Below are positions 45,419 to 50,428 of a stretch of DNA of 64,000 nt, one piece after another; the first letter of the stretch is position 1; each line of letters begins with the position of its first letter. Below the pieces are notes generated by a model that saw only the letters and a program-made list of their open reading frames with translations, searched no databases and was not told where the DNA came from. The position numbers and the translations under genes are program-made. This DNA comes from Modestobacter lapidis (lineage in GTDB: Bacteria; Actinomycetota; Actinomycetes; Mycobacteriales; Geodermatophilaceae): NCBI GenBank assembly GCA_019779905.1, contig JABAKE010000002.1, positions 372,001 through 436,000 on the forward strand. Direction: 5' to 3'.

Positions 45419-45475
45419 GGGCACTGAGCCTAGGGGCCGCCCGCGGTGCGGGCCGCCTCGGTAGCGTGGCCCACC

Positions 45476-46456
45476 GTGACCACAGCCACCGCCTCCCCGT
45501 CCGGCGCGACCGCCGTCGGCATCGCCACGGTGACCACCGCCGGCACCGTGCTGGACACCTGGTACCCCGCGCCCCGGCTCGGTGCGCCGCAGGGCCTGCC
45601 CACCGGCACCCGGCAGATCGGGATCCTGGAGGCCGAGGGCGAGCTGGGCCCGGACTACGGGGGTCTGGTGCGCACCGACGACGCCCGGGGCGTGCAGGTC
45701 TTCGCCGTCCGCACGGCGATCGCCGACCTGGCCGCCCCGCCGGTCGACGCGCACGACGTCTACCTGCGGCTGCAGCTGCTGTCGCACCGGCTGGTGCGCC
45801 CGCACGGGATGAACATGGACGGCGTGTTCGGGTTGCTCACCAACGTGGCGTGGACCAGCGCGGGGCCGGTCGAGGCGGCCGGGTTCTCCGCCGTCCGGAT
45901 GCGGGCCGCGCTGGGCAACCTGACGGTCTTCTCCGTCGACAAGTTCCCGCGGATGGTCGACTACGTCGTTCCCTCCGGCGTGCGGATCGCCGACGCCGAC
46001 CGGGTGCGCCTGGGCGCCCACCTGGCCGAGGGCACCACCGTCATGCACGAGGGGTTCGTGAACTTCAACGCCGGGACGCTCGGCCCCTCGATGGTGGAGG
46101 GCCGGATCAGCGCCGGGGTCGTCGTCGGCCCCGACTCCGACATCGGCGGCGGCGCCTCGATCATGGGCACCCTGTCCGGCGGCGGCAAGCAGGTCGTCTC
46201 GATCGGCGCGGGCTGCCTGCTCGGCGCCAACGCCGGCATCGGCATCTCCCTGGGCAACCGGTGCGTCGTCGAGGCCGGCTGCTACGTGACGGCCGGTTCG
46301 CGGGTGACGCTGCCCGACGGTTCGGTGGTCAAGGCCGCCGACCTCTCCGGCCGCGACGGGCTGCTCTTCCGCCGGAACTCGGTGTCCGGCGCGCTCGAGG
46401 CCATCCCGCGGGACGGCGACTGGGGGGCGCTCAACGCCGCCCTGCACGCCAACTGA
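45476..46456 (+). CDS. dapD: 2,3,4,5-tetrahydropyridine-2,6-dicarboxylate N-succinyltransferase
   Basis: A 326-residue DapD of the actinobacterial (Mycobacterium-like) type. The N-terminal half has [27 protein letters not shown]; the C-terminal left-handed beta-helix has hexapeptide repeats ([33 protein letters not shown]-like [15 protein letters not shown] and [13 protein letters not shown]). It adds succinyl from succinyl-CoA before transamination and DapE. GTG 45476 is used. It faces dapE divergently; the aminotransferase step (dapC) is encoded 3-5 kb downstream. Confidence 0.95.
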
Positions 46457-46581: not shown

Positions 46582-47517
46582 ATGACCAGCGCCCCGGTGA
46601 CGCCCCGTCGGCCACCGGCCCGGAGTGGCTCCACCGCGGTGCGGCCCCGGCAGCCGGCCCGCCGCGGGGGCCGACGTCCGGCCCGGCGGTCGCGCCGAGC
46701 TCGGCGTGCCGCCGTTGGCCGCGGGCTCGGCTGGCTGGCCGCCGTCGCCGCGCTCACCCTGGTGGCCGTGCTCGCCGTGCACCGGGATGCCCCCGGGACC
46801 ACCCCGATCGCCGGCCGCTGCACCGTGGCCGGCTCCGACCTGACCCTCACCACCGCGCAGGCGGCCAACGCCGCCACGATCGCGGCAGTGGCCCGCAGCC
46901 GCGGGCTGCCGCAGCGGGCGACGGTGATCGCCCTGGCGACGGCGCAGCAGGAGTCGCGGATCCGCAACCTCGACTACGGCGACCGCGACTCCCTGGGCCT
47001 GTTCCAGCAGCGCCCCTCGCAGGGCTGGGGCAGCGAGGCGCAGGTGCAGGACCCGGTCTACGCCACCGGCAAGTTCCTCGACGGGCTGGTGAAGGTGCCC
47101 GGCTGGGAGACCGGTGACCTGACGACTACCGCGGACGCGGTGCAGCGCAGCGCGTTCCCGCTGGCCTACCGACAGTGGACCGGCATGGCCCAGACGCTGG
47201 CCGGCGCGCTGCTGTCGGACTCACCCGCGCAGCTGTCGTGCACCTTCAGCCCGCCTCAGGCGAGCGGCCCGGTCGAAGACCGCGCGGCCGCCGTCGCCGA
47301 CGTCGTCCGCCGCGAGGCCGGTACCCCGACCGTCCTGCCCGGCGGTCTCGTCTCGGTGGCCGCGGCCGGGTGGCCGGAGGCGAGCTGGGCCGTGGCGCAC
47401 GCCGAGCGGCTGCAGCTGGCCGGGGTGCGCTTCGCCGACTGGTCGTGGAGCCCGGGCGGCGGCTGGGTCCAGACCGGCGAGGTCGTCGGTGATCTACAGC
47501 TACAGCTGGCCAACTGA
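46582..47517 (+). CDS. Membrane-anchored lysozyme-like (transglycosylase-type) protein
   Basis: A 311-residue protein with a very Arg-rich cytoplasmic start (about 50 residues), one helix (GLGWLAAVAALTLVAVLAVH) and an exported domain. In that domain, TVIALATAQQESRIRNLDYGDRDSLGLFQQRPSQGWG is the actinobacterial lysozyme-like/SLT-type pattern with a catalytic Glu in QQES. The C-terminal 80 residues hold the family tail (SWAVAHAERLQLAGVRFADWSW). It probably acts on peptidoglycan; in databases such proteins are sometimes misnamed heavy-metal transporters. ATG 46582 is used; the function is inferred from the motif. Confidence 0.75.
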   Translation: MTSAPVTPRRPPARSGSTAVRPRQPARRGGRRPARRSRRARRAAVGRGLGWLAAVAALTLVAVLAVHRDAPGTTPIAGRCTVAGSDLTLTTAQAANAATIAAVARSRGLPQRATVIALATAQQESRIRNLDYGDRDSLGLFQQRPSQGWGSEAQVQDPVYATGKFLDGLVKVPGWETGDLTTTADAVQRSAFPLAYRQWTGMAQTLAGALLSDSPAQLSCTFSPPQASGPVEDRAAAVADVVRREAGTPTVLPGGLVSVAAAGWPEASWAVAHAERLQLAGVRFADWSWSPGGGWVQTGEVVGDLQLQLAN

Positions 47518-47556
47518 GAGATCGGAACTGTCGTAGCCGCTGGACAGACTCGGCTC

Positions 47557-49170
47557 GTGATCGATCCGAGGGAAGCCAGACCCCAGCGATGGGACGACAT
47601 GACCCGGGACGCACTGGAAGAACTCCTCGCAGGCGGGCTGACGCCCGACCGGATCGGCGAGCTCTACGCCCGCAGCGGCTCCCTCGTCCGGCTGGTCGCA
47701 CGCCGCTGGGGACTCGATTGCCGAGCGCTGCGTGCCCGGTCGCTCGGTCTGAGCATCACCGATCCGGACATCGCGGCGCAGTTCGTGCGTGTGGTCGACG
47801 GGGCACCGTTGAGCCACCTGCCGGCTGACTTGATGTCCGGGAGCGGGGCCCGGTGTCGATGGCGGTGCCCTGACTGTGCCGAGGAGTGGGTCACCTCCGT
47901 GGCGAACCGCACCAAGCGGAAGTCTGGTTGCCCAGCATGTGCACGGGAGCGCGGGCTCGCACTGGCGCGATCCCGGGTCGCAAAGTCATCGCCGCTGTCC
48001 GTGGCCAGACCAGGACTCGTCGCTGAGTTCGTGACGAACCTCAGCCGGCCGGACCGAGGCCTCGAGAGCACGCCCAGCGGGTCACATGACCGCGTGCGCT
48101 GGCGCTGCCGCCGAGGACACGAGTGGGAAACCACGGCACGTCAGCGCGTGCGGCACGCTACGCAATGCCCCACGTGCCTGGCCGGCCTCTGGACGAGCCG
48201 CCTGGAGTTCCAGGTCGCCGAACTCGTGCAGGCCAGCACGGGTGTCACCGTGAGCGTCGGCGCTCGCGTGCGTCGAACCGACCGCGCGGCGGACGAGCAC
48301 ATCGACCTGCTGATCGACTCCCTCGACCTGCTCATCGACCTCGACCCCAGTCGCTGGCACTCGTCTCACGAGTCGGTGGAACGAGACACTCGCAAGCTCG
48401 AACGGCTCGCGGGACGCCAGTACGTCCGGGTGCGGCCGAGGACTCTCGGGTTGCTGCGTTCAGGGCGGGCAACCGTCGAGCAGCAGATCTTCCTGTCAAC
48501 GGACGACGAACACGACCCGTGGTCGTGGTCCCTGGCCGTGCTGCAGGTCGTGGCGGCGATCTCGCCATCGACACGGATCCAGGACCTCACGCCCCTCGCG
48601 GAGGATGCGGCGCTGGCTCGTGCTGACCGCCGGTGGCGGGCCCTTCGAACAGACCCACGGCGACGGAGTCTGCGCTCGGAGCACCCCCTCGTGGCCGACC
48701 AACTCGTCGAGGTGGTCGGACGTCCAGGTCTCACTGCAGCCGACCTCACGCCCGCAGGCGAGGACCGGGTCCTGTGGATGTGCCCGGAGTGCGGACACCG
48801 ATGGGAGGCGCGCGTGGCGAATCGCACGCTGCTCGGAACCGGCTGCCCACCCTGCTCCTACCGCCGAGGCGCCGCTCGATCTGCGAGGCCACGACCGGGG
48901 CGCAGCTTCGCTGATCGCCACCCACTGTTGGCCGGGTACTTCGTCGACAACGTGACCCACCCCGGCGTGGGGCCGGGCCAGCTCAAGCCCAACAGCATCG
49001 ACCGCTGCTCGTGGACCTGCCCGCACTGCAAGGGCCCATGGATCGCGACGCCGCACGCGCTCAACCAGCGACCACGAGGCGGTTGTCGCGGTTGTTCGTC
49101 CACGCGGATGGCATCCAGCCGCCGACAACGCCCATCGGGCTCCGGCGCGGTCCAGCCGACGATCGGCTGA
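47557..49170 (+). CDS. Treble-clef zinc-finger protein with PD-(D/E)xK/Vsr-like domain
   Basis: A 537-residue protein with four copies of a treble-clef (DUF4379-like) module. Their metal residues are C104/C107/C125/C128, C184/H188/C204/C207, C409/C412/C430/C433 and C488/C491/C510/C513; each has W.C, then GC..C, and copies 2-4 follow a P.L...F/LV.....P lead-in. Between modules 2 and 3 (about 215-297) lies a Vsr-like nuclease pattern: D250, IDLDPSRWH (D261/D263, W267, H268), ERDTRKLERLAG (D277, K280) and YVRVR. Codon choice is visibly less GC-biased than in the neighbours, a sign of transfer. GTG 47557 is used. A DNA-targeting defence or repair nuclease is a reasonable guess, not proved. Confidence 0.8.
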   Translation: MIDPREARPQRWDDMTRDALEELLAGGLTPDRIGELYARSGSLVRLVARRWGLDCRALRARSLGLSITDPDIAAQFVRVVDGAPLSHLPADLMSGSGARCRWRCPDCAEEWVTSVANRTKRKSGCPACARERGLALARSRVAKSSPLSVARPGLVAEFVTNLSRPDRGLESTPSGSHDRVRWRCRRGHEWETTARQRVRHATQCPTCLAGLWTSRLEFQVAELVQASTGVTVSVGARVRRTDRAADEHIDLLIDSLDLLIDLDPSRWHSSHESVERDTRKLERLAGRQYVRVRPRTLGLLRSGRATVEQQIFLSTDDEHDPWSWSLAVLQVVAAISPSTRIQDLTPLAEDAALARADRRWRALRTDPRRRSLRSEHPLVADQLVEVVGRPGLTAADLTPAGEDRVLWMCPECGHRWEARVANRTLLGTGCPPCSYRRGAARSARPRPGRSFADRHPLLAGYFVDNVTHPGVGPGQLKPNSIDRCSWTCPHCKGPWIATPHALNQRPRGGCRGCSSTRMASSRRQRPSGSGAVQPTIG

Positions 49171-49303
49171 GCACGACGCGGCAGCGAACGCGGTTTCGGC
49201 CGCGCTCGACGGTCACGCCCATCGCCGGTTGGACGAGCTGCGGGCGGCCCTCCAGCAGCACGCTCGCCCGGGCCGGCTGAGCGGCCGTCGCGGCCGGAAG
49301 CGC

Positions 49304-50428
49304 TCAGCCCGCCAGGCGCGCGACCGCCGCCTCGATCCGCTCGTCGGAGGCGGTCAGCGCCATCCGCACGTGCCGCGAACCGGCCGGGCCGTAGAAGCTG
49401 CCCGGTGCGGCGATGACGCCGAGCCCGGCCAGCCAGTCGATCGTCGTCCAGCAGTCCTCGTCCCGGGTGACCCACAGGTAGAGGCCGGCCTCGGAATGGT
49501 CGATCCGCGCGCCGGCGGCGCGCACCGCCGCGGTCAGCTTCGCGCGGCGGCGGCCGTACCGGGCCCGCTGCGCCTCGACGTGCTCGTCGTCGGACAGTGC
49601 GGCCACCATCGCAGCCTGCACCGGCGTGGGCACCAGCAGCCCGAGGTGGCGGCGGGCCTCCCAGACCCGCCGCACCAGCGCCGGGTCACCGGACAGCAGC
49701 CCGCCGCGGTAGCCGGCAGCCGTGGATTGCTTGGACAGCGAGTGCACGGCGAGCAGGCCGGTGTGGTCGGGACCGGCCACGGCCGGGTGCAGCACGGAGC
49801 GCGGCGCGACGTCCCAGCCCAGCTCGACGTAGCACTCGTCGGCGACGACCGGGACGCCTTGCTCGCGGCCCCAGCGCACCCAACGGGCGAGCTCGTCGTC
49901 GGAGAGCACCCGGCCGTGCGGGTTCCCCGGCGAGTTCAGCCAGGCCAGCACGACGTCGGCGGCGTCGTCCGGTGGGGTGTCGGTGCGCAGCACCTGCAGC
50001 CCGGCGACGATCGCGCCGACCTCGTAGGTGGGGTAGGCGACCTCGGGGACGACGACGGTGCCACGGCCGGACAGTCCGAGCATGGTCGGCAGGAACGCGA
50101 CCAGCTCCTTGGAACCGATCGTGGGGATCACCGAGGGGTCGGCGCCGAACGGATCGGCCAGCGTGACGCCCAGCCGCCGCTGCAGCCAGCCCGCGGCGGC
50201 GCGGCGCACGTCGGCGGTGCCCAACGCGGTCGGGTAGCCCGGCGCGTTGCCGGCCGCCGCCAGCGCCTCGACCAGCACCTGCGGTGTGGGGTCGACCGGC
50301 GTGCCGATCGACAGGTCGACGACGCCGCCGGGATGCTCGGCCGCACGGGACCGGGCCGGCGCCAGGGAGTCCCAGGGGAAATCCGGCAACCGGTGGGCGG
50401 CCCCCGCCCGAGGTGCCGCCGCGGTCAC
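49304..50428 (-). CDS. dapC: Succinyldiaminopimelate transaminase (class I/II aminotransferase)
   Basis: A 374-residue PLP enzyme that would transaminate N-succinyl-2-amino-6-ketopimelate. PLP-site blocks are LAWLNSPGNPHGRVLSDDEL, VPVVADECYVELGW and LLAVHSLSKQSTAAGYRGG, where the Lys of SLSK binds PLP. The C-terminal RHVRMALTASDERIEAA carries the substrate Arg. GTG 50428 overlaps the ferredoxin stop (GTGA). The ferredoxin-aminotransferase pair matches mycobacterial Rv1177-Rv1178. With dapD and dapE nearby, three steps of the succinylase branch lie within 6 kb. Confidence 0.92.
   Translation of the reverse strand: MTAAAPRAGAAHRLPDFPWDSLAPARSRAAEHPGGVVDLSIGTPVDPTPQVLVEALAAAGNAPGYPTALGTADVRRAAAGWLQRRLGVTLADPFGADPSVIPTIGSKELVAFLPTMLGLSGRGTVVVPEVAYPTYEVGAIVAGLQVLRTDTPPDDAADVVLAWLNSPGNPHGRVLSDDELARWVRWGREQGVPVVADECYVELGWDVAPRSVLHPAVAGPDHTGLLAVHSLSKQSTAAGYRGGLLSGDPALVRRVWEARRHLGLLVPTPVQAAMVAALSDDEHVEAQRARYGRRRAKLTAAVRAAGARIDHSEAGLYLWVTRDEDCWTTIDWLAGLGVIAAPGSFYGPAGSRHVRMALTASDERIEAAVARLAG

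Follow-up and report, generated by a model that had tools for sequence, protein, structure and literature searches.

A predicted treble-clef nuclease gene of Modestobacter lapidis with a PafBC-like promoter sequence: a candidate free-standing homing-type endonuclease

We analyzed a 64,000-nucleotide stretch of the Modestobacter lapidis genome (assembly GCA_019779905.1, contig JABAKE010000002.1, positions 372,001–436,000 of the forward strand; hereafter the window), and in it the gene at 47557–49170 (+), an open reading frame (ORF) of 537 aa with a GTG start, which encodes a predicted EDxHD/Vsr-type nuclease with treble-clef modules on either side of the nuclease core. The new finding is that a sequence with the spacing of a PafBC-type damage promoter is present ahead of all seven known orthologues of the gene. 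In our judgement, the case is evenly balanced that the gene specifies a free-standing homing-type DNA endonuclease expressed from a DNA-damage promoter.

The putative promoter of the gene occupies 47529–47556 (+) and consists of TGTCG at 47529–47533 (an element of the −26 type), an 11-nt spacer, the −10-like CAGACT at 47545–47550, and 6 nt leading to the leaderless GTG. The seven orthologues all showed the arrangement TGTCR-N11-nAnnnT-N6-start codon, with TGTC exactly 24 nt ahead of the start; all of them share TGTCR, the same spacing, and an A and a T at the −10 positions. The spacing is that of the PafBC/RecA-NDp consensus, which has been published as tTGTCRgtg-8 nt-TannnT (PMC5656591); a PafBC-specific −26 motif that is engaged by PafB has also been described (PMC11804915).

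The same arrangement was looked for in 28 treble-clef nuclease genes picked by regular expression from the gathered loci, viral and promoter loci being excluded. TGTCR-N11-nAnnnT followed by a start codon 5–9 nt on was found in 11 of the 28, i.e. in the seven orthologues and in four of the 21 others (L120, L140, L141, and L254, of which L140 and L141 are close relatives), while the pattern at 16 other spacings was found in none of the 28 at each (Fisher 9e-6 for the 21 non-orthologues alone). The test was partly unblinded, as the pattern was first noticed in the orthologues and L120, L140, and L141 were viewed before the count; the spacing comparison serves as the control. The regular expression dropped 14 of 20 loci of one set and two of four of another (L253 and L255), L011 starts at a contig edge so that its upstream DNA is missing, and in L232 the pattern caught the wrong motif though the nuclease profile matches the gene. 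When the strict consensus was allowed at most one mismatch, it occurred at the correct spacing in four of the 28 members and once at spacing 5. In a position weight matrix (PWM) test, six of the seven orthologue sites were at or below 6e-5 of the background; the matrix was trained on seven sites chosen for preceding identified repair-type genes and, in one case, a DUF222 gene, while sites from four gene-carrying genomes form part of the background. The sequence and its spacing suggest that the promoter is probably of the damage type. L140 and L141, which are from Streptomyces linear plasmids, carry the exact TGTCAGTG element, and these relatives lie approximately 12 and 14 kb from the plasmid end.

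In the genome that contains the window, we identified pafA (TIGR03686) and, a few kb away, two adjacent genes for WYL proteins, one of them of the PafC type (HTH_PafC E 2.9e-39) and the other pafB-like by position. The exact promoter spacing with a start codon occurred at 31 sites as against 11 for the reversed pattern. Fifteen of the 31, picked by eye, were fetched, and the remaining 16 include the site of the window gene itself. Among the fetched sites were those of uvrB and radA (NCBIfam equivalogs above cut-off), an AlkZ-like glycosylase, a PDDEXK_1 nuclease, and a DUF222 gene, and also those of genes with no evident repair role. The element variant of the window gene, TGTCGTAG, resembles that of radA and the AlkZ-like gene, TGTCGTAC. 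The full consensus with at most two mismatches gave 192 sites as against 59 for the reversed pattern, sbcD-like and recQ-like genes being among them; five of 14 such sites examined had a long ORF starting 6–7 nt downstream (by the script's choice). The DUF222 gene (L264, DUF222 E 1.1e-12) is of the DUF222/HNH (13E12-type) kind, whose nucleases are of the HNH type, unlike the window protein; its promoter spacing is the same, and the damage response may accordingly control further homing-like nuclease genes. A further locus, L260, is similar by eye and has no Pfam match.

The nuclease core lies at 48184–48567 (+), residues 210–337, with the conserved residues E217, D250, D263, H268, D277, and K280. 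An earlier reading of the window, made from the sequence only, had proposed a DNA-recognising nuclease in which a Vsr-like PD-(D/E)xK core sits between treble clefs, and had set beforehand two refuting outcomes, a predicted structure without that core or a family in which homologues throughout lack D261/D263 and K280. AlphaFold2, run on the window protein and three orthologues, gave a mean predicted local distance difference test score (pLDDT) of 78.3 and a predicted template modelling score of 0.38; the core was predicted confidently (pLDDT 90.5), with the order alpha-beta-beta-beta-alpha-beta. When the profile of the nuclease domain was compared with the PDB, the sole sequence match was the homing endonuclease I-Bth0305I (3r3p; E 3.5e-6), and in the fold comparison XPF and FANCM were also close to the predicted core. 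The proposal is borne out at the level of prediction, as is the placing of the IDLDPSRWH ... RDTRK ... YVRVR pattern between modules 2 and 3 and the numbering of D261, D263, and K280. The six aligned orthologues all have these three residues, as does the seventh; nine of nine sequences from the wider family share D263, but K280 varies among them. The predicted nuclease fold together with the conserved E, D, D, H, and D residues, which we take to be the letters of the published EDxHD motif, places the protein among the EDxHD/Vsr-like enzymes. The window protein almost certainly has a nuclease fold and is probably an active DNA endonuclease.

With a limit of E 10, ten Pfam families were listed for the window protein, and Vsr (PF03852) was not one of them; on nine nuclease domains of the family it gave one weak match (E 0.072). 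MTES_1575 (PF18741) was below its curated cut-off for the window protein (13.3 bits vs 38.2; E 0.092). The E. coli Vsr mismatch endonuclease (1vsr) is not known to carry treble-clef arrays and acts beside a cytosine methyltransferase.

Pfam DUF4379 (PF14311) matches the window protein in four stretches (E 1.4e-43; 147.4 bits vs a cut-off of 24.5), all on the + strand: module 1 at 47818–47946 (E 3.1e-13), module 2 at 48016–48177 (E 1.5e-10), module 3 at 48727–48861 (E 5.0e-14), and module 4 at 48940–49101 (E 7.0e-7). The sequence-only reading had described all four as C..C/C..C; this holds for modules 1, 3, and 4, whereas module 2 has the ligand pattern C184-x3-H188 / C204..C207, with C184, H188, C204, and C207 as the likely ligands. 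Ahead of module 1 is a helix-turn-helix (HTH)-like N-terminal domain (approximately residues 10–62; 47584–47742, +), and the AlphaFold2 model runs from this HTH-like start through two modules, the core, and a helical linker to the last two modules. Elsewhere in the genome no DUF4379 match was found at E <= 0.001, and with regard to this domain the gene is the lone gene it had been taken for. The genome has three more weak matches to the nuclease-core profile (E 7.4e-10, 8.1e-9, and 8.8e-7; see loci L251 and L272, G000:C353), and the one at C353:23858-24100 sits approximately 2 kb from a PafBC-like site preceding an SNF2-type gene.

Proteins in which CapR/DUF4379 arrays are joined to a C-terminal EDxHD/Vsr-like domain have been described as a large outgroup of homing endonucleases that had gone unrecognised and for the most part lacks annotation, and free-standing homing genes as common (PMC12350094). 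The window gene is a free-standing ORF, not one encoded in an intron or intein, and since free-standing homing genes are common it is still compatible with the EDxHD/Vsr-like homing family. The phage group II intron enzymes of that source combine DUF4379/CapR-like arrays with an EDxHD/Vsr-like nuclease as the window protein does, but have three to five modules followed by a C-terminal nuclease and lie inside introns (PMC12350094). The window protein has 2+2 modules around a central nuclease (4+4, by pattern, in the protein from genome G144) and a promoter sequence of the PafBC type. With I-Bth0305I it shares the fold of the nuclease domain and the order of the motifs, and the long multi-domain DNA binding described for I-Bth0305I (PMC3943268) may be counted as a further likeness. 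The differences are that I-Bth0305I is described among intron-encoded, phage-derived enzymes whereas the window gene is free-standing and chromosomal, that the core of the window protein is central and flanked by treble-clef modules, and that its D261, P264, and P294 replace the E, G, and E found in most EYDG relatives.

The sub-branch of the window protein is marked by the IDLDP motif and by a core away from the C-terminus. Its members are H1 (Rhodococcus), H2 and H3 (Streptomyces plasmids), and the proteins of genomes G144, G310, G486, and G126; relatives are mostly annotated just as ‘zinc-ribbon domain-containing protein’. A Rhodococcus opacus relative (L252, 3925–5272) has no annotated gene. 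In the 35-genome family of G486, no H2-like gene was found besides that of G486 itself. The A2 search of 394 genomes of the class matched five, two of them with orthologues (three candidates scored per genome), and among the matches listed in the genome-contig scan there were three loci, all known orthologues.

Relatives of the nuclease core were confirmed in 30 of 115 candidate stretches of viral contigs. Among the viral ORFs inspected, which were those printed by a filter and a subset of the 30, the core lay by eye between apparent intein splicing blocks of a phage head-type protein in five loci (three with identical ORFs), and behind DUF4379-like arrays in another five (two with an identical ORF). 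In viral loci L158–L161 and L169, a head-protein-like ORF apparently holds an intein with an EDxHD-type core. Some of the fold matches among viral proteins are named homing endonuclease or group I intron protein; the matches are at low TM-scores over a multi-domain model, and many of the named rows are giant-virus ‘restriction endonucleases’. The whole window protein had no match in the phage collection, and when the orthologue alignment was run against the viral contigs 168 stretches fitted a pattern and none was confirmed.

Orthologues are sporadic and confined to one place. Of 112 genomes of the family Geodermatophilaceae (96 of them at >= 90% completeness), ten matched at E 1e-10 and seven carry orthologues, which are 48–63% identical: the window genome, one Klenkia, and five Blastococcus. 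Each of the seven genes immediately follows the same upstream gene and precedes dapC, at 39–84 bp from the former and 9 bp to 4.9 kb from the latter; in G064 there is an additional ORF between orthologue and dapC. In the window, the upstream gene is at 46582–47517 (+) and has no Pfam or NCBIfam match, and the convergent dapC-type aminotransferase gene is at 49304–50386 (−), its 5′ end being approximate (Pfam Aminotran_1_2 E 2.2e-32). A dapD-type succinyltransferase gene is at 45446–46456 (+; Pfam THDPS_M E 2.6e-15). The claim that the nuclease gene splits a dapD-dapC neighbourhood is correct in that it lies between both, but this interval differs across the family in any case: measured from the upstream gene to dapC (window 47518–49303; loci L048–L103) it ranges from 12 bp to 6.7 kb between BLAST-hit ends, and genomes without an orthologue have a short gap or unrelated genes there. 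On a dapD tree of 52 genomes, the gene shows at least five changes of presence.

The history of the slot was examined with trees. Quick trees of the flanking genes group the window genome with one congeneric species (support dapC 93, dapD 90, upstream gene 43). In the gene tree with five outgroups, a branch with support 100/99 set the copy of the Blastococcus genome G099 apart from the other six, and grouping all Blastococcus copies in one clade was rejected (p-value of the approximately unbiased test, p-AU, 0.031). The G099 copy scored against the five outgroups within or above the range of the six other orthologues and shows no sign of fast evolution; dapC and dapD of G099 are 79–91% and 77–92% identical to those of the other carriers and closest to Blastococcus. 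Judging by these sequences, the G099 copy is probably a separate, older lineage in the slot, and since it has an ordinary rate and Blastococcus-like flanks, at least one lateral replacement at the slot is likely. The G102 orthologue is broken into two frames and is separated from dapC by an ORF that by eye resembles UvrA, along with other DNA (L118, 8014–10395). The gene seems to have occupied a single chromosomal slot, sporadically, for a long time.

We infer DNA cutting, a target, damage induction, and homing, as follows. Binding to a long DNA site would fall to the HTH-like N-terminus and the 2+2 treble-clef modules, and metal-dependent hydrolysis of the DNA to the central EDxHD/Vsr-like core (E217, D250, D263, H268, D277). 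Transcription would begin at or near the GTG; since the leaderless promoter has a PafBC-type −26 element, the enzyme would be produced upon activation of PafBC by damage or single-stranded DNA, i.e. during active recombination. The gene would persist in the family by cutting and by being copied into the slot downstream of the constant neighbour, with frequent loss.

Several observations weigh against this interpretation. In the promoter of the window copy, neither the GTG part of TGTCRGTG, the −26 consensus, nor the initial T of the −10 element is kept, the G099 site was weak in the PWM test (1e-3 of background), and 17 of the 28 gathered family members have no such element in the scanned region. 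Three sequences of the window clade alone matched I-Bth0305I at just E 0.37, Bax1 outscored I-Bth0305I in the fold comparison with many PD-(D/E)xK folds scoring nearby, and the three replacements relative to most EYDG relatives are a feature of the window clade. An Rfam scan of the 64-kb window gave no match, so that the gene is in no recognised intron, and no conserved target flanks were found, the slot being a variable intergenic region. In an earlier gene tree with one long, poorer outgroup, a Blastococcus clade was not rejected (p-AU 0.324).

The foremost alternative is a host accessory DNA-repair nuclease of the PafBC regulon, vertical in the Geodermatophilaceae and often lost, with treble-clef modules that recognise damaged or branched DNA. 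It is favoured by the regulon, namely the damage-type promoter sequence in all seven orthologues and the company of uvrB, radA, the AlkZ-like gene, and the PDDEXK_1 nuclease at the same spacing, and by selection, which by sequence comparison is purifying (dN 0.22–0.40 vs dS 1.1–1.6 in five pairs, with dS near saturation). The nearness of the fold to Bax1, XPF, and FANCM is in line with it, as is the pairing of the window copy with Klenkia in the best gene tree, which is unsupported (42/43). However, just seven of 112 genomes have the gene, none of the 48 intervals without it holds a detectable remnant (hmmsearch E <= 1, tblastn E <= 0.1), presence changes at least five times on the dapD tree, the lineage of the G099 copy is mismatched, and the nearest sequence relatives of known function are homing endonucleases. 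The enzyme and the promoter are common to the repair and homing readings. The nearest relatives, the patchiness in one slot, and the lineage mismatch speak for homing; we rank a homing-type role first, at a little short of an even chance, and consider a repair role rather unlikely.

A second alternative is a defence system of one gene, whose nuclease would recognise and cut the DNA of phages or plasmids, possibly being induced when damage is sensed; a defence role had been raised by the earlier reading. The joining of a nuclease to DNA-reading modules, the patchy distribution, and the relatives on actinobacterial plasmids would fit, and WYL regulators also govern some defence systems (PMC9122588). 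PADLOC, however, gave no family up to E 10 for the window protein, neither of the genes that flank all seven orthologues, i.e. the upstream gene and dapC, is a defence gene, no partner gene for self-protection was seen, and viral collections often contain relatives. Little here speaks positively for defence, which we regard as improbable.

Recent acquisition of a lone gene, which the sequence-only reading had proposed, is very improbable. In its favour, no orthologue was found in 22 other searched genomes of the genus, and the GC content at third codon positions is indeed below that of the neighbours (0.795 vs 0.979 for dapD, 0.926 for the upstream gene, and 0.944 for dapC), but it is equally low in all seven orthologues (0.76–0.83), so that codon bias is a family trait and was rejected as a mark of recent arrival, and the gene is in the same slot in three genera, with the nearest copy just 63% identical and dN well below dS.

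The free-standing homing-type reading would link nucleases of this type with the actinobacterial damage response. Our literature search found no paper joining PafBC and a homing endonuclease, and three that mention DUF4379; looking for homing endonucleases inducible by damage, or for damage promoters of 13E12 genes, gave nothing useful. If the promoter works as its sequence suggests, it would provide a simple trigger for at least part of the ‘zinc-ribbon domain-containing protein’ gene family and might account for the timing of their movement. Treble-clef arrays on both sides of the core (2+2 in the window protein, 4+4 in that of G144) offer a natural model for modular DNA recognition. More tentatively, it is possible, if doubtful, that Actinobacteria carry a class of damage-inducible endonucleases in which bilateral treble-clef arrays around a central EDxHD core read a long site and PafBC times the cutting; homing or genome policing would then be coupled to the single-strand-DNA alarm of the host, with the target length set by the number of modules.
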